Shown here in pieces: positions 21,565 through 60,586 of a stretch of 64,000 nucleotides of DNA; position 1 is the stretch's first letter; each line of letters opens with the position of its first letter. The notes below the pieces were generated by a model. The model had not been told where the DNA came from. It searched no databases and saw nothing but the letters and a program-made list of their open reading frames with translations. This stretch comes from Hymenobacter edaphi (lineage in GTDB: Bacteria > Bacteroidota > Bacteroidia > Cytophagales > Hymenobacteraceae). A program made the position numbers and the translations under genes. Location: the NCBI RefSeq assembly GCF_003258365.1, contig NZ_QHKM01000001.1:1054001-1118000 (forward strand). Reading direction: 5' to 3'.

Positions 21565-22416
21565 ATGCCGCTTATGCGTATTCCCCGACTTCAACTCCCG
21601 CCCTTGCCGGCCGTGCTGCTGTCCATCCTCAGCGTGCAGGGCGGCGCGGCCATTGCCAAAGGCTTGTTTCCGGTGCTCGGCCCGGCCGGCACGGCTAGCC
21701 TGCGAATCGGCCTCTCGGCCCTGATTCTGCTGCTGGCCGTGCGCCCCCGCCTCAGCCGGCTGACGGGGCAGCAGTGGCGGGCGGTGGTGCCCTACGGCCT
21801 GGCCCTGGGCAGCATGAATTTCTTGTTTTACTGCGCCCTGGCCCGCATTCCGCTGGGCTTGGCCGTCACGCTGGAGTTTGTGGGGCCGCTGAGCCTGGCG
21901 CTGCTGGGCTCCCGCCGCTGGCTCGATGCGCTGTGGGCGGTGCTGGCCGCCGCTGGCATTGCGCTCATTGCGCCCTGGCAGGGCCGCGGCCTCGACGTGC
22001 CGGGCATAGGCTTCGCGCTGGCGGCGGGCGCCTGCTGGGCCGTGTACATCGTGCTGGGCCGGCGCACGGCGGCGGCGCTGCCGGGCGCGCAAGCCGTGGC
22101 CATCGGAATGCTGTTTGCCGCCCTGCCGGTGGTGCCCTTCGGCCTGGGCAGCGGCCAGCTGCTGGCCCTGACGCCCTGGCTACTGCTGCTGGGCGGTCTG
22201 CTGGCGTTGTTTTCCAGCGTGCTGCCGTTTTCGCTGGAAATGCAGGCGCTCAAGACCATGCCCACCCGCACCTTCAGCATCCTGATGAGCCTGGAGCCGG
22301 TGGCCGCCGCCCTCTCGGGCTGGCTGCTGCTGCACGAGCAGCTAACCCCCGCCCAATGGCTGGCCGTGGCCTGCATCGTGGTGGCCAGCGCCGGCGCCAC
22401 CCTGGCGGGGCGGTGA
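21565..22416 (+). CDS. RhtA-like EamA-family exporter
   Basis: A drug/metabolite-transporter family membrane protein of 283 residues with ten predicted helices in two EamA repeats. Blocks such as LEFVGPLSLAL, YIVLGRRTA, LPFSLEMQALKTMPTRTFSILMSLEPV and HEQLTPAQWLA match the RhtA group, which exports threonine and homoserine in enterobacteria. Substrate here is inferred only. I prefer ATG 21565 to one 33 bases upstream because the extra residues are not hydrophobic or conserved in type. The stop codon lies within a run of 9-bp repeats. Confidence 0.82.
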   Translation: MPLMRIPRLQLPPLPAVLLSILSVQGGAAIAKGLFPVLGPAGTASLRIGLSALILLLAVRPRLSRLTGQQWRAVVPYGLALGSMNFLFYCALARIPLGLAVTLEFVGPLSLALLGSRRWLDALWAVLAAAGIALIAPWQGRGLDVPGIGFALAAGACWAVYIVLGRRTAAALPGAQAVAIGMLFAALPVVPFGLGSGQLLALTPWLLLLGGLLALFSSVLPFSLEMQALKTMPTRTFSILMSLEPVAAALSGWLLLHEQLTPAQWLAVACIVVASAGATLAGR

Positions 22417-22514
22417 GGTGGTGAGGTGGTGAGGTGGTGAGGTGGTGAGATGGTGAGATGGTGAGGTGGTGAGGTGGTGAGATGGTGAGATGGTGAGGTG
22501 GTGAGGTGGTGAGT
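22414..22514 (+). repeat. Tandem 9-bp repeat, GGTGGTGAG / GATGGTGAG units
   Basis: About eleven nearly identical nine-base units (GTGAGGTG or GTGAGATG phases) start in the stop codon of the exporter gene. Two 19-base stretches, 22445-22463 and 22477-22495, are exact complements of 22580-22598, which overlaps the stop of the kinase gene, so the spacer can fold into a long hairpin. Confidence 0.9.
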
Positions 22515-22597
22515 TTGATGTTCAGACGGCGCGGTACTGCGCATCTCGTGCAATCAGAACAGAACTACACTCACTATTTCACCATCTCACCATCTCA

Positions 22598-24415
22598 CTA
22601 AACCACCGGCAGGGTGAGGTGGAAGGTGCTGCCGCAGCCGGGGAAGCTTTCCACCCAGAGGCGGCCGCCCTGGGCGGCCATGAACTCGCGGCTGATGCTC
22701 AGGCCCAGGCCGGTGCTGCCGCGGCGCACTTCGCCTTCGGGGCTCTGGTGGAAGCGCTGAAAGATTCGCTCGTGGTGCTCGGGCGCAATGCCGGGGCCAC
22801 AGTCTTCCACGCTGAGCTGCACGCGGCCGTCGGCGCTCAGCGCGCCGCGGATGGTCAGCTGGGCTTCGCTGGGCGAGTAGCGGATGGCGTTGGAGAGCAG
22901 GTTGATGAGCACCCAGGTGGTTTTTTCTTCGTCGGCGCGCACGGGGGGCAGGTCCGGGGGCAACTCCAGCCGCAACGGCAGGCGCTTGTCGTCGAGCTGG
23001 GGGCGCACGGTGTCGACGGCGCGCTGCACCACGGCGGCCAGGCTGCTGGGGCGCAGGCTGAGCTGGATGCCGGCGCCGGCGTCGAGGCGGGCCACGGTGA
23101 GCAGCTCGCCCACCATGCGCTGCAGGCGCTGGGTTTCCTGCCCGATGCCCTGGGCCAGGCGCTGCCGCTCCTCGGCGTCGGTGCGCTCGTGCTGCAGCAG
23201 CTTCAGGCTAAGGCCGATGCTGGCCAGCGGGGTTTTCAGCTCGTGCGAGACGGTGGCCAGGAAGTTGGATTTGAGCTGGTCGAGCTTCTTGAACTCCGAC
23301 ACGTTGCGCAGGGCCAGCAGCTGCCCGGCCGGGCGCACGTGCTGCCCGCTCTCGTCGAAGGTGCGCAGCTCGTGGGCGCTGAGGCGGTAGTACTGGTCGT
23401 AGCCGCTGATGCGCACGGTGATGAGCGGGGCGGCTTCGCCATCGGCCGCAGCGGCCGGCGGGGCCTCGGCTTCGGCGTCATCAGACTCCGGGCGGCCGGC
23501 GTGGGCGGCGGCTACGGGGCGGAGCATCCGGGCCAGCAGCTCCTGCGCCGGGGCCAGCTCGGTGGCGCGGCGGCCCACCAGCTCGGTATCGGCGCGGCCG
23601 AGCAGGCGGCAGATGGCGGGATTGGCCAGCAGGATGACGCCACGCTCATCGAGCAGCAGCAGGCCCTCGTCGAGGCTGCTCACCACGCCTTCGAGGCGGG
23701 TGCGCTCGGTCATGATTTCGGTGAGGGCGGTGCGGCGGAACTTCTGCAGCTCCAGCAGCAGGCGGTTGAAGGCCCGGCCGGCGCGACCCAGCTCGTTGTA
23801 CTCCCCGGCCGGGATGGTCGACTCGAAGTTGTTTTTGCTGGCGTGCTCCAGGGCCCGCGTCAGCTCCTCGATGGGCACGGCGGCGGCCTCGGCGGTGGCA
23901 ATAATCAGCCCCAGGGTGATGACCACGGCCAGCGCTGCCAGCGCCAGCATGATGCGAAACGACTCGGCGGCGCGGCGGTCGGCCACCAGGCTTTTGCGCT
24001 CCAGGGCCTCCACGTTCAGATCGACTAAACGGTGGGCGAGGCCGCGCAGGTAGCTGCGGTAGGGCGCCAGCGCGGCGGGCACTGCGCCATTCTGCACGCG
24101 CTGCTGGTAGGCCGCCGCGGCCTGGGCCAGGCTGTCGATGACGGCCTGCTCGCCGGGCTCGGTGACGTTGGCACCCGCGCGGCTGAGGGCCTGGCCCAGC
24201 AGCGGCAGCCCGCCGGGCGCAGCCGGCTGGGTTTCCAACTGGTCGATGGCGCGCAGCAGCACCTGGCCCACCTCCACGGAGTAGAGGTTGGTTTGGCGGA
24301 TGCGGCGGGTGGTGTTGTCGAGGCGTAGCAGGGCCGTGGTGGCGTAGGCGCCCAGCACCAGCAGCAGGGCCAGTACCACGCCGAAACCCAGGCTTATTTT
24401 CGTGCGGATGTTCAT
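22598..24415 (-). CDS. PAS-containing sensor histidine kinase
   Basis: A 605-residue inner-membrane kinase. Helix one spans about 8-28 and helix two about 156-178, enclosing an all-helical periplasmic four-helix sensor. A HAMP-like segment follows (about 178-230), then a PAS domain (about 242-375, LDEGLLLLDERGVILLANPAICRLLGR) and HisKA with His391 in ATVSHELKTPLAS. The ATPase has NLLSNAIRYS, EDCGPGIAPEH and GSTGLGLSIS. It resembles KinE-type cognate kinases of NtrC-class regulators. No regulator adjoins it; the likely partner is the NtrC-type regulator at 31786-33147, with the ABC/coiled-coil genes between. That pairing is inference. Confidence 0.92.
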   Translation of the reverse strand: MNIRTKISLGFGVVLALLLVLGAYATTALLRLDNTTRRIRQTNLYSVEVGQVLLRAIDQLETQPAAPGGLPLLGQALSRAGANVTEPGEQAVIDSLAQAAAAYQQRVQNGAVPAALAPYRSYLRGLAHRLVDLNVEALERKSLVADRRAAESFRIMLALAALAVVITLGLIIATAEAAAVPIEELTRALEHASKNNFESTIPAGEYNELGRAGRAFNRLLLELQKFRRTALTEIMTERTRLEGVVSSLDEGLLLLDERGVILLANPAICRLLGRADTELVGRRATELAPAQELLARMLRPVAAAHAGRPESDDAEAEAPPAAAADGEAAPLITVRISGYDQYYRLSAHELRTFDESGQHVRPAGQLLALRNVSEFKKLDQLKSNFLATVSHELKTPLASIGLSLKLLQHERTDAEERQRLAQGIGQETQRLQRMVGELLTVARLDAGAGIQLSLRPSSLAAVVQRAVDTVRPQLDDKRLPLRLELPPDLPPVRADEEKTTWVLINLLSNAIRYSPSEAQLTIRGALSADGRVQLSVEDCGPGIAPEHHERIFQRFHQSPEGEVRRGSTGLGLSISREFMAAQGGRLWVESFPGCGSTFHLTLPVV

Positions 24416-24564
24416 TGAGGGGCCGCCGGGGCGGGGAATCAGGGGACAAGGTACGGCGGGGCGGTTTTAGCCTGCTGCACGTCAAGAACCAGCCCCTATG
24501 ATTTCTTGAGTACTTTGCCTTATTTCGTCCAGTGACGTAATCTTAAATGTTTTAAGTATTGCCA

Positions 24565-25110
24565 ATGAGTGTACGTGAAGACGACGTCGAGTTTTTTAGA
24601 AAGCTGCGCGCTCAAAATGTTGACAAAATAATTCTTGCTAATGGCGGCATAAGCCTCTACCGCAAAGAAGCAGCTTTGGACTACGACATAAAACTTCTCA
24701 TTGATAAAGACTAGCAAATAATTGAATTTGATGGCAGGTTTATTTCTACTAAAGCAGAGTTGCATTTTGATCTATACCAGCAACTACAGTTCCCACCGTG
24801 GTATGGCCACAACTTCGATGCGCTGAATGACTGTCTACGTGATTGGAAAGTAGCTACCAATGGAACTGTCTTTATTTTTCGGAACCTAAATACATTAGAG
24901 CCTGAGCACACCAATGCATTACTTCACATATTATCAATGCATTCCAGACGCAGATTACCCTATGGACAAAAATTAATCACTTTAATTCAAGGAAAGCTAT
25001 TAGGACTTGCCACCACCAAACCAATTGGAGCTATTAATTTATATGTATGGAGTGGTTTGGAAAGCCCCGGGGGATATGGAAACTTGTTATCAGAGTCTGA
25101 ACGACCTTAG
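24565..25110 (+). pseudogene. Barstar-family (ribonuclease inhibitor-like) gene with in-frame TAG
   Basis: One frame runs from ATG 24565 to the stop at 25108, broken only by TAG at 24712-24714. After the stop the protein reads IIEFDGRFISTKAELH, then LQFPPWYGHNFDALNDCLRDW and FIFRNLNTLEP, the hallmark of barstar, the inhibitor of barnase-type RNases. The 49 residues before the stop (SVREDDVEFFRKLRAQN...) match nothing I know. Either the TAG is a nonsense mutation in a longer protein, or there are two genes and barstar starts at a non-ATG codon (ATA or ATT just after TAG, or TTG 24760, which would lose the first strand). GC is much lower than in the neighbours, suggesting transfer. No barnase-like toxin is in the window. 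Confidence 0.65.
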
Positions 25111-25121
25111 TTCCCTAGCCC

Positions 25122-25162
25122 CTACGACCGCCGAATCTTCTCCTTCAGATGCTCCACGGAGC
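25122..25162 (-). pseudogene. Displaced copy of the 3' end of the ABC ATPase gene
   Basis: These 41 bases match 25581-25621, the last 13 codons and stop of the ABC ATPase gene, at 38 of 41 positions. The repeat starts exactly at the stop codon. In the ATPase frame the copy reads SVEHLKEKIRRS rather than FVEHLKEEIRRS. It lies about 460 bases from the original in the same orientation, with the small membrane-protein gene between, so it looks like the scar of an insertion or duplication. Confidence 0.8.
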
Positions 25163-25196
25163 AACTCCGCTCTAGCCCTCACTGCTCTTTTACATT

Positions 25197-25517
25197 ATGA
25201 AATTCAAGGACAAATTATTTGCAACACTCCGCCTCCTCCAACTCATTACGAGTATTACGCCGGCCGTGTGGCTATTCATTATTATCTATTATCTACTGGT
25301 TCAAAATCAATTTCTAAAAGCAGGTCTTTTCTTCGGATTCATCACTACTGGCTGGTCAGTGTATATCTGGCTACCAACTACGATTATCCTGCTCGTTCTT
25401 AAAAAAAGGCCTATTATGCATCCAGCGACTTTACTCATTCCGGTGGTTAGTATCGTGACCAGCTTCGTAATAATTAATATTAATCCAGGCTGGGTATTTG
25501 ACGATTGGCTAGGTTGA
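25197..25517 (+). CDS. Small membrane protein of unknown function
   Basis: A 106-residue protein with three or four hydrophobic helices (LLQLITSITPAVWLFIIIYYLL, FLKAGLFFGFITTGWSVYIW, TTIILLVLKK, TLLIPVVSIVTSFVIININ). It has the same low GC as the barstar-like gene and lies between the two copies of the ATPase 3' end. It may be a passenger of the same insertion. I recognise no family. Confidence 0.55.
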   Translation: MKFKDKLFATLRLLQLITSITPAVWLFIIIYYLLVQNQFLKAGLFFGFITTGWSVYIWLPTTIILLVLKKRPIMHPATLLIPVVSIVTSFVIININPGWVFDDWLG

Positions 25518-25529
25518 TATTACTATCTA

Positions 25530-25568
25530 ACGAAGCGGGAGAGATGCTTCGACAAGCTCAGCATGACG
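25530..25568 (+). repeat. Half copy of the GTCATGCTGAGC palindromic element
   Basis: The sequence CGAAGCGGGAGAGATGCTTC and then GACAAGCTCAGCATGACG matches the right half of the full palindromic element at 60441-60530. It sits just downstream of the ATPase gene stop. Confidence 0.75.
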
Positions 25569-25580
25569 TTCTAGGGGATT

Positions 25581-26405
25581 CTACGACCGCCGAATCTCCT
25601 CCTTCAGGTGCTCCACGAAGCGGCCGAATTCCGGCTCGGCTTCCACGTTGGGGTGCCAAGCCAGGCCCAGGGCGGCCAGGTCGTATTGGTGCTGGCGGGA
25701 GATGGTGGCGCCGGGGATGAGCTGGCCGGCCTCGTCCCGTTCGTGGCCCATGAGCCAGAGGGTATCGGAGAGGGCGGTGGTGGTGGCCAGGTCGTGGGAG
25801 ACGATGACGACGGTGTTCAGTTCGTCCATCGTGGTGACTTCGACGATGATTTTCTTTAGCTCGTCGATCATGGCCACGTCAAGGCCGGAGAAGGGCTCGT
25901 CGAGCAGGATCAGGTGCTCGGAGCAGAGCAGCTGCTGGGCAATGGCGGCGCGCTGCCGCTGGCCGCCGGAGAGCTGGGCGGGGAACTTCTTGCGGTGCGG
26001 GGCGAGGCAGAACCGCTCCAGGAAGGCTTCGACTTCCTGCCGGGCGGCCTCGGGCTGATGCTTTTGCTGGGCGGCCAGCAGCAGGTTGTCGGCCAGGCTG
26101 CGGTGGTTGAACAGGGGGTAGCGCTGCTGCACCAGGCCCACGTCGCCGGGGCGCACAGGGTGCTGCTCCTCTCCTACCTGCACGGCGCCGCTGCTCGGCT
26201 GCGTGAGGCCGGCAATGATGCGGCACAGCACCGATTTGCCGATGCCGGAGCGGCCGTAGAAGCCTACGACCTGGCCCTGGCTCATGCCGGGGCGCACCAC
26301 GTTGCGCACCTGGGCGCTGATGTCGCGCAGCACCAGCTCGCCGTGGAAGCTCATGGAGATGTTGTCAAGGGTGAGTACGGGCTCGTGGTGGCTGTATGGT
26401 GACAT
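25581..26405 (-). CDS. ABC transporter ATP-binding protein
   Basis: A 274-residue ABC ATPase. Walker A is GRSGIGKS (51-58), the Q loop is in VGLVQQRYPLF (about 90-99), the signature LSGGQ is at 145-149, Walker B LILLDE at 165-170 and the switch histidine His204 in VSHDLA. It is closest in style to ATPases of the nitrate/sulfonate/taurine uptake group, which fits the permease at 26738 and the NMT1-like binding protein at 27785. The C-terminal 60 residues (SRQHQYDLAALGLAWHP...) form an extra tail. It is the last transport gene of the cluster; a 332-base spacer with a 21-bp repeat separates it from the permease. Confidence 0.93.
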   Translation of the reverse strand: MSPYSHHEPVLTLDNISMSFHGELVLRDISAQVRNVVRPGMSQGQVVGFYGRSGIGKSVLCRIIAGLTQPSSGAVQVGEEQHPVRPGDVGLVQQRYPLFNHRSLADNLLLAAQQKHQPEAARQEVEAFLERFCLAPHRKKFPAQLSGGQRQRAAIAQQLLCSEHLILLDEPFSGLDVAMIDELKKIIVEVTTMDELNTVVIVSHDLATTTALSDTLWLMGHERDEAGQLIPGATISRQHQYDLAALGLAWHPNVEAEPEFGRFVEHLKEEIRRS

Positions 26406-26537
26406 AGTGAGTTGGTGAAATGGTGATTTAGTGCCGTGTGCCAGTCAGTGCACTTGCGCAGAGCAGTTGGTGCCGGGCGGCGAATGATTGTGACGAGGCT
26501 GCACAGCCCCGAATCCAGGCTTAGAGGTCCTGCGTTC
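26406..26537. repeat. GTGA-rich repeat fragment and spacer before the ATPase gene
   Basis: The segment 26407-26438 (GTGAGTTGGTGAAATGGTGA, then TTTAGTGCCGTG) closely matches 30730-30755 and resembles the spacers at 22414 and 40206. The rest of this stretch, up to the 21-bp repeat, shows no gene. Confidence 0.6.
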
Positions 26538-26726
26538 GAACTGCCGACCATCGGGGCCGGGCTGCAACTGCTCGGAACCCGGTTGCAGACGACTGAAACC
26601 GGGCTGCGAGCCATCGGGGCCAGCTTACAAACAACTGTGACCAAGTTGCCAACGCTTAGGACTGGTTTGCACGCGGTTGCGTCCAGCCTGCAAACAATCG
26701 GGTCCGGTATGCAGGATTCCGGCAGA
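26538..26726 (+). repeat. Degenerate 21-bp tandem repeat, nine units
   Basis: Nine consecutive 21-base units (26538, 26559, 26580, 26601, 26622, 26643, 26664, 26685, 26706) share a pattern close to gGpyTGCanaCnnnTcGgncC. In a plus-strand frame open from 26436 to 26747 they encode heptads such as GLQLLGT, RLQTTET, GLRAIGA, SLQTTVT and SLQTIGS. It lies in the spacer between the ABC permease and ATPase genes. Whether it is coding, a binding array or a selfish repeat is unknown. Confidence 0.8.
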
Positions 26727-26737
26727 AAACCGCACGA

Positions 26738-27520
26738 CTACCCCTGACCGGCCGCCATCAGGGCCGCGTAGGGGAAGAACACGCGGCGCAGCAGGCCGAA
26801 TACGTAGTCCTGGGCGGCGCCGGTAGCGAGGATGACCAGCTGAATGGCCAGCACGCCGTCGAGGTGCAGGTAGCGGTTTTGCTTGTAGAGCAGCAGTCCG
26901 ATGCCGCCTTCCGACTGGTAGAGCGTTTCCACCAGGGTTATCATCGTCCAGATGATGGCGAAGTTCTGGCGCACCACTTCCAGCATCAGGTCCAGCTTGC
27001 CGAGCACCACCACTTCCCAGAAGCTGCGCCACTCGCCCAGGCCCAGGGTGCGGGCGTGGTCCATTTCCTCCTGGGTGGTGGTCAGAATGACGCTGGTCAT
27101 GCCGGTGACCAGGTACACGGTGGTGGCAAAGACGAGCACCGAGAGCTTGACTTCGTGGCCGGAGCTGAGCATCAGGGCCATGAAGAAGGTGAGGCCGGTG
27201 AGGGTGAGGTAACGCATCTTGGTGGCCGCGTAAGCCAGCGGGCGGAAAAAGGGCAGCGCCGTCAGGTACGACAGCAGCAGGGCCAGCACCGTGCCGATGG
27301 CCAGGGCTTGCAAGGCCGTGGTCATGCTGGCCCACAGCTCCTGGATCAGACCCTGGGCAGTAACCAGGTCGCGCAGGGCGGCCAGCACCTGGCCCAGGCT
27401 GGGGAAGATCTGCACCGGGTAAAAGGCCCAGAGCAGCAGCAGCACCAGCACCTGCAGGGCCACCATCGTGGTGAACACCGCGCGGCGCGGGGTGGCGTTG
27501 GGAAGGAACAGGGTTTTCAT
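26738..27520 (-). CDS. ABC transporter permease (TauC/SsuC/NrtB type)
   Basis: A 260-residue inner-membrane permease with about six helices. The cytoplasmic coupling loop EEMDHARTLGLGEWRSFWEVVV fits the EAA motif of binding-protein-dependent permeases. The start at ATG 27520 gives KTLFLPNATPRR before the first helix. It lies 264 bases downstream of the substrate-binding/OmpA gene, with a hairpin and a repeat fragment in the spacer. With the ATPase at 25581 it should form the inner-membrane core of one transporter. The cargo is unknown. Confidence 0.9.
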   Translation of the reverse strand: MKTLFLPNATPRRAVFTTMVALQVLVLLLLWAFYPVQIFPSLGQVLAALRDLVTAQGLIQELWASMTTALQALAIGTVLALLLSYLTALPFFRPLAYAATKMRYLTLTGLTFFMALMLSSGHEVKLSVLVFATTVYLVTGMTSVILTTTQEEMDHARTLGLGEWRSFWEVVVLGKLDLMLEVVRQNFAIIWTMITLVETLYQSEGGIGLLLYKQNRYLHLDGVLAIQLVILATGAAQDYVFGLLRRVFFPYAALMAAGQG

Positions 27521-27784: not shown

Positions 27785-29563
27785 TTAGTTGCCGAGCACG
27801 ATTTCGACGCGGCGGTTTTTGGCGCGGCCGTCTTCGGTGGTGTTGGCGGCCACGGGCTCCAGCGCGCCGTGGGCGTAGACCTGCACGCGGCCGTCGGGAA
27901 ACGAGGAGCGGCTTTTGGCTTCCAGCCAGCTCTTCACGGCCAGGGCGCGCTGCTCGGAGAGCTGCTGGTTGCTGGCGGCGGCGCCCACGTTGTCGGTGTG
28001 GCCGTGCACGGCCACTTTCAGGCGGCCGGCTACCACCAGGTCGTCGAAGAGGCGGTTCAGGTCCTGCTCAGCGGCCGGGGTGAAGGCGCTGCGGCCGGTT
28101 TCGAACGCGATGTTCCAGGCCCGGCGGCTCACGCTCTGGCGGATTTCGTCGTCGGCGGCAAACTGTTGCTGCTCGGCCGGGGCAATGGTTTTGCCCTTGT
28201 ACTGCGCCTGCAGCTTGCGCAGAATCGAGAGGTCCAGCATCTGCTCCAGGGGCACGTAGCTGGGCAGCTCCTTGGGGTAGAGCCGGCTTTGCACGTCGCC
28301 GAAGGTTTTGTAGACGGAGGCGTAGATATTGGTGCCGCCGTTGTCGAGGCCGAAGAGGGTGAGGTTGTCAGCGAAGTTGAAGGCCTTGCTGCCGCCCAGC
28401 TCCACCACTTCGCCGGTGCGGTCGGCTTCGCTCACGCCCTTGTAGTAGCGCAACCAGTAGCTGCCGGGCTTGTCTTTGTCGCCGTACACTTCCGAGGAAA
28501 TATCGGCGGCGCGCTGCAGGGCTTCGGGGTGCGACTTCACCTGGTCACCGGCCACGGCCAGGGCGGTGATGATGCCCTGTACTTCTTTTTCGTGGGCCGC
28601 GTACCAGCGCTTGGTCGTCACCATGATGTTGGGCATCTGGTTGCTGTAGTCCTTGGTCGAGACGATGTTGACCAGGCCGCCCTTCTGCTTGGCAATGTTC
28701 ACGTCGCCGGGCGTCCAGGTGGCCACCGCGTCGGCTACCACGTCGACTTTGACGCCAGTGCTGCGGCCTTTCACCACTTTCAGGCGCTGCTCGGGCTTGC
28801 CGAGGATGTATTTCTCGGCGGCCACCAGGAAGTCGGAGGCGGCCATGAAGTTCACGGCTTCGGGGTCGTAGGTCGTCTCGTCGGGGTTGACTTTCAAGCC
28901 GTTGTCGGCGCACCACTTCAGGGCAATGTTCTGGTCGCCGTCGCGCAGGTAGCAGGCAATGGTTTTGCCCAGGGCCGATTTGGGGTTGTCGAGCCACTCC
29001 TTCGGGCCCATCAGCTTGTCTTCGCCGAAGGACTTACCGGGGCTGTAAGGCAGAATCTGCAGGCCGGTGCCGGCTTTTTCCAGCTGCTGCTGCACGGCCG
29101 AGAAGGCCGGCAGCCCGTCACCCATGATGCTCACGATGAGACCGGGCGTCTGGGGGTTGTTCTGCAGGTCCAGGGCATTCTTGACCAGGTCGGCCTGCAT
29201 CTTGGCCACGTCGTCCTGCCGCACAATCTGCATGTCGATACCGTTGGCGGCCATGGCCGAACCCTCGGTGCTGCGCGGGCCGCCGTTGGCCAGCATGGCG
29301 CCCATCTGCGAGTTCCAGGCCATTACTTCCCAGGTCACCGGGGTGCCTTTCTCAGCCGGCGTGCTAGTCGGCAGCGGGGCCAGCGGCACCGCCAGGTTGG
29401 TGCGCGTGCCGCCCGCCTGGGTGGGCAGCTCGATGGAGTTGAGCAGGACGGATTGCGTCTCCGCTTTCTGAAAGACGGCCCCGCTGCTAATGAGCTTGTT
29501 GATGCCGAAGTAAGCGGCCAGCACCAGCAGCAGGCCGATGACGATTTTACCGCGAGTTGTCAT
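27785..29563 (-). CDS. Substrate-binding protein fused to an OmpA-like domain
   Basis: A 592-residue envelope protein. Residues 7-24 form an N-terminal membrane anchor or uncleaved signal. The middle (about 50-440) resembles NMT1/TauA-type periplasmic binding proteins (TPVTWEVMAWNSQMGAM, DVVADAVATWTPGDVNIA, IMVTTKRWYAAHEKEV). Residues about 470-592 form an OmpA C-terminal domain with VAVHGHTDNVGAAASNQQLSEQRA and DGRAKNRRVEIVL, which binds peptidoglycan. The fusion places a ligand-binding domain between the inner-membrane permease and the cell wall. It is followed by permease and ATPase genes and preceded by two coiled-coil genes. Confidence 0.88.
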   Translation of the reverse strand: MTTRGKIVIGLLLVLAAYFGINKLISSGAVFQKAETQSVLLNSIELPTQAGGTRTNLAVPLAPLPTSTPAEKGTPVTWEVMAWNSQMGAMLANGGPRSTEGSAMAANGIDMQIVRQDDVAKMQADLVKNALDLQNNPQTPGLIVSIMGDGLPAFSAVQQQLEKAGTGLQILPYSPGKSFGEDKLMGPKEWLDNPKSALGKTIACYLRDGDQNIALKWCADNGLKVNPDETTYDPEAVNFMAASDFLVAAEKYILGKPEQRLKVVKGRSTGVKVDVVADAVATWTPGDVNIAKQKGGLVNIVSTKDYSNQMPNIMVTTKRWYAAHEKEVQGIITALAVAGDQVKSHPEALQRAADISSEVYGDKDKPGSYWLRYYKGVSEADRTGEVVELGGSKAFNFADNLTLFGLDNGGTNIYASVYKTFGDVQSRLYPKELPSYVPLEQMLDLSILRKLQAQYKGKTIAPAEQQQFAADDEIRQSVSRRAWNIAFETGRSAFTPAAEQDLNRLFDDLVVAGRLKVAVHGHTDNVGAAASNQQLSEQRALAVKSWLEAKSRSSFPDGRVQVYAHGALEPVAANTTEDGRAKNRRVEIVLGN

Positions 29564-60370: not shown

Positions 60371-60440
60371 GGCTGGCTGTATGGCGGCTATCAGGGCGTC
60401 ATGTTACGACAAGCTACCCAAAGCCCGCGCCCCGCAGAAC

Positions 60441-60530
60441 GTCATGCTGAGCTTGTCGAAGCATCTATCCCGCTTCGTTGAATTGTATCTGACGAAGCGG
60501 TGGAGATGCTTCGACTGCGCTCAGCATGAC
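60441..60530. repeat. Full palindromic interspersed element, GTCATGCTGAGC type
   Basis: GTCATGCTGAGCTTGTCGAA and GCATCT at the left are mirrored by AGATGCTTCGACTGCGCTCAGCATGAC at the right, with CCGCTTCGT/ACGAAGCGG inside. At about 90 bases it is the most complete copy in the window; partial or variant copies lie at 25530, 27575 and 29615. Confidence 0.85.
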
Positions 60531-60586
60531 GGCCTTTTTTGCCCCGGATGGCTTCCGGATAGGCACCAAACAGATCAGTCCGTCGG

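Follow-up and report, generated by a model that had tools for sequence, protein, structure and literature searches.

Organization of the variable spot behind the ATPase gene

The stretch of Hymenobacter edaphi DNA analysed here, 64,000 nucleotides long and referred to as the window, contains a variable spot (24455–25580) between the start of a sensor kinase gene and the stop codon of an ABC-transporter ATPase gene. The kinase gene (22598–24415, minus strand) is the conserved flank on the far side of the spot and is also found downstream of the ATPase gene in H. gummosus, H. jeollabukensis, sp. CRA2, and sp. 15J16-1T3B. The ATPase gene (25581–26405, minus strand) is intact; its product matches PF00005 (E = 3e-26), and a relative encodes a 96% identical protein. 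The order of features from the kinase start (24415) is a broken barstar-family gene, a 41-bp copy of the ATPase gene end, an orphan membrane ORF, a single arm of an interspersed repeat, and the ATPase gene itself.

The barstar-family gene (24559–25110, plus strand), a putative immunity gene that is absent from the initial annotation, is broken by an in-frame stop codon at 24712–24714. Positions 24760–25110 match PF01337 with E = 2e-12 and a score of 47.3 bits, compared with a gathering threshold of 23.4; the H. gummosus relative scores 50 bits. The next best match to the window barstar fragment among 204 genomes of the family is 38% identical and belongs to another genus, and seven other Hymenobacter genomes compared contained no match.

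The membrane ORF (25197–25517, plus strand) encodes 106 residues, whose hydrophobic sequence suggests a membrane protein. The initial annotation had placed a low-GC membrane gene here, and the GC3 values agree with it. GC3 is as low as 0.43 in the membrane ORF and 0.37 in the barstar gene, whereas the ATPase gene reaches 0.90 and the flanking genes overall 0.90–0.92. The ORF matches no Pfam or NCBIfam family. No relative was detected among the 389 other genomes searched in the order (E ≤ 0.001) or in plasmids and IMG/VR (E ≤ 0.01). Nothing above chance was detected within the family, where the lax threshold of E ≤ 1 returned 99 of the 204 genomes, including its own, and the best match in another genome (E = 0.002) ran across stop codons.

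The space between the membrane ORF and the ATPase gene is occupied by a REP-like repeat arm (25515–25575, plus strand), the outer end of which is 8 nt from the ATPase stop codon. The repeat fragment reported previously between the copies proved to be this single arm, at about 25515–25575, of an interspersed repeat. It has at least 67 other matches in its own genome, a lower bound since 40 of 120 candidates were scored, and all but one of them are confined to this arm. The interspersed repeat often occurs in inverted pairs, whereas the window spot contains only one arm.

A direct repeat of the ATPase gene end

The end of the ATPase gene is present twice in the window. Copy 2 (25581–25621) is the last 41 bp of the gene, starting at its stop codon, and copy 1 (25122–25162, minus strand), offset by 459 bp, matches it at 38 of 41 positions. 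The best pair obtained from 40 block shuffles of 24400–26400 matched at 28 of 41 positions. A scan of the whole window for ungapped direct pairs spaced by 42–999 bp recovered other pairs with at least 37 of 41 matches exclusively within an 8-bp tandem array near 22.4 kb. The repeat described in the initial annotation is therefore real, and it begins, as had been claimed, at the stop codon of the ATPase gene and extends into the coding sequence. Copy 1, read by eye in the ATPase frame, retains the stop codon; of its three differences from copy 2, one is silent and two change a residue. A pattern search of 204 genomes found no copy pair in a second genome, and the gene end was present twice in only one of the three genomes that hold it; the test is weak, since the pattern detects the gene end at all in only those 3 of 204 genomes.

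A relative with a single copy of the gene end

The initial annotation had proposed searching for a related strain with one copy of the repeat, and H. gummosus (L039) is such a strain. It contains the same kinase and ATPase genes and between them one intact barstar relative of 179 residues, which is 53% identical over 116 residues to the second barstar fragment of the window and has the same position and orientation. In H. gummosus, 9 nt separate the barstar stop codon from the sole ATPase end; in the window, 11 nt separate the barstar stop codon from copy 1. Therefore, copy 1 occupies the place of a barstar/ATPase junction. The orphan membrane ORF is absent from the H. gummosus spot.

The kinase of the window is most similar to that of H. 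jeollabukensis (93% identity versus 89% for H. gummosus). The spot of H. jeollabukensis contains a different gene, 175 residues long, and the same repeat arm next to the ATPase gene, with its outer end 8 nt from the stop codon as in the window. Based on the layouts of these two relatives, the window has the appearance of two alleles, one of the barstar type and one of the repeat-arm type, joined end to end. The gene content of the spot differs among the five clade members, and H. gummosus shares only the barstar type with the window. The ATPases of H. gummosus and the window are 95% identical and the barstars 53%, so the two barstar genes may have arrived separately. In a sliding identity comparison with the window, the four clade relatives are about equally similar across the ABC operon, while H. 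jeollabukensis is mostly the closest across the kinase. This profile allows for an exchange of the ABC operon and contains no clean breakpoint.

Relics of ATPase gene ends in other loci

ATPase homologues (E ≤ 1e-90) are present in 87 of the 204 family genomes. We examined 111 loci, 97 of them after the removal of identical ATPase sequences, with a downstream reach of 0.8 to 6.6 kb. A nucleotide HMM of the full gene detected downstream ATPase fragments in six of the 97 distinct loci, all of them 3' tails and none 5' or internal pieces; the reversed-sequence control yielded no fragment at E ≤ 0.1. The relics cover model positions 642–829 in L050, 662–829 in L223, 720–829 in L188, 721–827 in L182, 717–823 in L193, and 790–827 in the window, where the match is weak on its own (E = 0.043). 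The distance from relic start to stop codon varies, with values of 41 bp, about 110 bp, about 170 bp, and about 188 bp. The ATPase frame is free of stops in the window and in all five other relic loci. Since the relic and the insert are at the same place in L182 and L188, they probably derive from one shared event, and the six loci represent about five events. Tail matches of 40–56 bp found by blastn 3.2–4.0 kb downstream in L200, L205, and L228 were excluded from the count, because the HMM found none there.

In four of the five events, including the window paired with H. gummosus, the sequence behind the relic has a counterpart behind an intact ATPase gene of another species, at nearly the same offset. 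L193 is colinear with L154 (offsets of 9 and 8 nt, 79.7%), L050 with L198 (72 and 72 nt, 77.7%) and also with L185 and L177, and L182 with L184 (159 and 151 nt, 77.5%). Behind the relic that L188 shares with L182 there is a different, DinB-like gene, for which no counterpart was found; the cargo of this locus has thus changed again. No counterpart was found elsewhere for the old cargo behind the L223 relic. The piece between the ATPase gene and the relic of L223 is located directly behind the ATPase gene in L222, with 90% identity and no relic. The insert of L182 and L188 is a porin gene, a relative of which (BBP2 family) directly follows the ATPase gene of L174, again with no relic. The colinearity behind the relics, together with the relic-free arrangements in L222 and L174, indicates that the relics are old gene ends and that the piece between the ATPase gene and the relic is newer.

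The L050 relic is 79.8% identical to L160 of another species and 75.9% to its own ATPase tail, whereas for the L223 relic the best match is the ATPase gene of its own locus (74.6%). When 60 loci were ranked by discordance between the ATPase body and the regulator, L182 and L188 were second and third, the relic-free L206 was first, and its neighbour L202 was fifth. L050 (22nd), L193 (28th), and L223 (37th) are not discordant. The top rank of L206 (genome G070), which has no relic, hints at scarless displacement of the ATPase gene. In the set L161–L236, which includes many ATPase loci of about 73% identity or less, a group of loci lacks a regulator in the roughly 4 kb downstream. Two such ATPase genes are listed for each of ten family genomes, including those of L193 (G062) and L050 (G126). 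The group lacking a nearby regulator and the two-gene genomes may represent a second paralogue with other neighbours.

Cargo exchange between the ATPase and regulator genes

The interval behind the ABC ATPase gene is, as judged from gene content, a hotspot of cargo exchange, with immunity and anti-phage-like genes among the cargo. Of 66 readable ATPase-to-regulator intervals, 59 are loaded (511–3970 bp) and seven are empty (67–150 bp); the clade of the window lacks the regulator at this place and lies outside the 66. The intervals contain 74 ORFs of at least 90 residues in 34 clusters, 23 of which are singletons. A Pfam scan of one representative of each of the 34 clusters, covering ORFs of at least 90 residues in loci with a regulator within reach, found no integrase, and neither did the scan of the cargo of the window clade. 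None of the 66 intervals contains a relic of the regulator head.

Defence and immunity names of the cargo are annotations by family match. Immunity families are represented by SUKH-1 in L049, barstar in the window and in H. gummosus, and Imm-NTF2-2, assigned from one tested member of a cluster present in eight loci. Five of ten scanned cargo proteins have PADLOC matches. These are a Drt8-like reverse transcriptase behind the ATPase-tail relic of L223 (1699–3252, E = 1e-157), a ThsB-like TIR protein in L179, a HEC-02-like ATPase in L232, the one tested member of a cluster found in nine loci, and weak matches to DzbB (L197) and PD-T7-5 (L185). A RAYT-like cluster occupies six loci, and three tested members match the NCBI REP-associated transposase model below its cut-off.

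Mechanism of formation of the repeat

Homology-facilitated illegitimate recombination anchored in the ATPase gene provides the best fit to these comparisons, and we consider it the probable origin of the repeat. Copy 1 is most likely the leftover end of the old ATPase gene, and the membrane gene, the half REP-like repeat, and the new ATPase end most likely constitute a newer insert. The donor molecule would have carried an ATPase gene with its own downstream DNA, including the membrane ORF and the REP-like arm. The donor ATPase gene would have paired by homology with the resident one, and the other end of the donor would have joined illegitimately 41 bp inside the 3' end of the resident gene. 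The outcome would be an intact ATPase gene with a new end and a new neighbour, followed by the stranded 41-bp old end and by the old neighbour, barstar. Direct observation shows that the gene end is repeated, that a relative has it once, that tail relics recur, and that the DNA behind relics is colinear with that of other loci; from this we infer the donor, the one-sided homologous mechanism, and its direction.

The variable starts of the relics and the lack of an integrase among the cargo representatives support one-sided recombination with an illegitimate join. The similarity of the L050 tail to another species and the discordance of the L182 and L188 ATPases also count in its favour. However, discordance is not specific, since the relic-free L206 and its neighbour L202 are discordant, whereas L193, L223, and L050 are not, and this counts against the mechanism. 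The similarity of the L223 relic to its own gene and the lack of a counterpart behind the L223 and L188 relics are further points against the model. No donor allele of the membrane ORF is known, which also weighs against it and leaves the bases of the junction unreadable. All relics derive from the ATPase gene, and the 66 intervals contain none from the regulator head; this asymmetry argues against symmetric one-sided recombination and would be predicted by a mechanism specific for gene ends. It is possible that truncated regulator heads were removed by selection.

Ends of genes are classic attachment sites at their 3' side, and site-specific integration at the ATPase 3' end would generate an identical topology. 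The 41-bp copies would then be attL and attR, and the element between them would be small, depend on mobilisation in trans, and restore the gene end with the att site that it carries. Such integration would also be consistent with relics derived only from the ATPase side and only from its 3' end. Nevertheless, it fits poorly with the variable relic lengths, which leave no fixed core, and with the lack of an integrase among the cargo representatives. Furthermore, the insert in L182 and L188 is a porin gene, and only one of the three genomes with the detectable gene end carries it twice. We therefore regard site-specific integration as unlikely. The integration at a gene end proposed in the initial annotation is retained as an insertion at this place, given the single-copy state of H. 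gummosus, and not as the arrival of a classical site-specific element.

The 41-bp stretch could instead have been duplicated locally, by template switching or strand slippage while the membrane ORF arose or moved, with no donor ATPase involved. The copies differ at only three of 41 positions, and the L223 relic is likewise closest to its own gene, as expected from such an error. However, a local error leaves unexplained the recurrence of relics of other lengths with the old neighbour preserved, as well as the foreign-like tail of L050, and appears quite unlikely to us. The partial duplication considered in the initial annotation describes the outcome, and its likelier source is a second ATPase allele brought in by one-sided homologous recombination.

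We speculate, with considerable doubt, that across Hymenobacteraceae the ATPase gene end could serve as a favoured, one-sided platform on which single immunity and defence genes land. It would be used by a dedicated, unrecognised recombination activity that always enters from the ATPase side and leaves relics of the gene end behind. The spot would then represent an integrase-free defence island, in which relics record the order of arrival.

Tandem duplication of the whole ATPase gene with subsequent decay of one copy is very improbable, because the full-gene HMM found only 3'-tail pieces downstream, and not the two decayed full-length genes that the initial annotation had named as the contrary case, and because H. 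gummosus represents the single state, notwithstanding the ten genomes with two ATPase genes. Transposon insertion with target-site duplication was rejected: the membrane ORF, the sole sizeable ORF of the insert, matches no Pfam or NCBIfam family, and terminal inverted repeats of the plain insert do not exceed chance. Across three readings of the insert ends, the number of shuffles out of 300 that did equally well was 291, 295, and, in the reading that includes copy 1, 34. The insert may be a non-autonomous transposable element. A type VI immunity array was also rejected, since the scanned flanking genes are the ABC operon and the sensor kinase, and not a type VI secretion cluster with an effector.

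Relation to known systems

The closest precedent for homology-facilitated illegitimate recombination at this spot is the sequential displacement model of type VI immunity arrays in Vibrio cholerae (PMC5361080; PMC9711863). As described there, a new module enters where upstream homology provides an anchor, and the old downstream immunity gene is kept and pushed back. In one case the 3' end of the old effector was shifted back. The mechanism proposed is homology-facilitated illegitimate recombination. According to these accounts, the Vibrio anchor lies within genes of the secretion cluster and it is an effector gene that is displaced, whereas in the window both copies derive from an ABC-transporter ATPase gene, and the spot carries cargo of mixed kinds. 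A join that is homologous at one end and illegitimate at the other is treated in PMC3240628, and variable segments formed in this way are discussed in PMC2884548; such recombination explains variable segments with no need for mobile elements. Our proposal for Hymenobacter differs in that it is derived from comparative anatomy.

Integrative elements that use gene 3' ends duplicate the gene end on both sides of the insert. The window resembles them in that the gene end flanks the insert on both sides. Unlike such elements, the relic loci contain mostly single-gene inserts, have no fixed repeat length, and yielded no integrase.

We regard the repeat as a recombination scar of a known kind, found here in a setting that is new because the anchor is an ordinary transporter ATPase gene and the cargo is mixed. 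We found no published account of this locus in the literature on Hymenobacter hotspots, barstar or illegitimate recombination, or on xenologous displacement with remnants, which does not prove that none exists. The integrase-free entry of single genes into chromosomes is known largely by inference. At this spot, several lineages retain the displaced gene end as a scar between the old and the new neighbour, so that the order and polarity of arrivals at a natural hotspot of immunity and defence genes can be read. If correct, the proposed mechanism would carry the displacement model, put forward for secretion clusters of Vibrio, over to a different phylum and to a transporter operon of an ordinary kind. 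The recurrence of the relics and the immunity and defence genes at the spot give the locus moderate interest.

REP-like repeats and other features of the window

The arms of the REP-like repeat are about 50 bp long with a GCTTCGACAAGCTCAGCATGAC core and often form inverted pairs with a short spacer. They are located at 25515–25575, at 60435–60531, and at many sites of the genome, which contains one match to a Y1 transposase. The interspersed repeat, often in inverted pairs, and the RAYT-like cluster at the spot in six loci resemble REP/RAYT systems, whereas the window has a single arm with no sign that it drives insertion. The arm was rejected as the driver, since it folds no better than shuffled sequences (z = -0.97) and L043 and L048, whose spots hold RAYT-like genes, have no arm next to the end of the ATPase gene.

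An 8-bp unit (TGGTGAGG-like) is repeated about 14 times in a tandem array at 22403–22521, between the 3' end of the kinase gene and a transporter gene, presumably EamA-like. An inverted arm of the array is present at 22570–22607, and a degenerate echo at 26397–26433 overlaps the ATPase start. Imperfect repeats around CATCGGGGCCGGGCTGCAA-like units fill 26460–26740 between the ATPase and permease genes; fewer than 51 positions of 26501–26750 match any of four relatives by blastn. The ABC operon also encodes a protein (27785–29563) with an OmpA domain at its C terminus; the same chain includes a solute-binding stretch that resembles NMT1 weakly, with a score under the Pfam cut-off.
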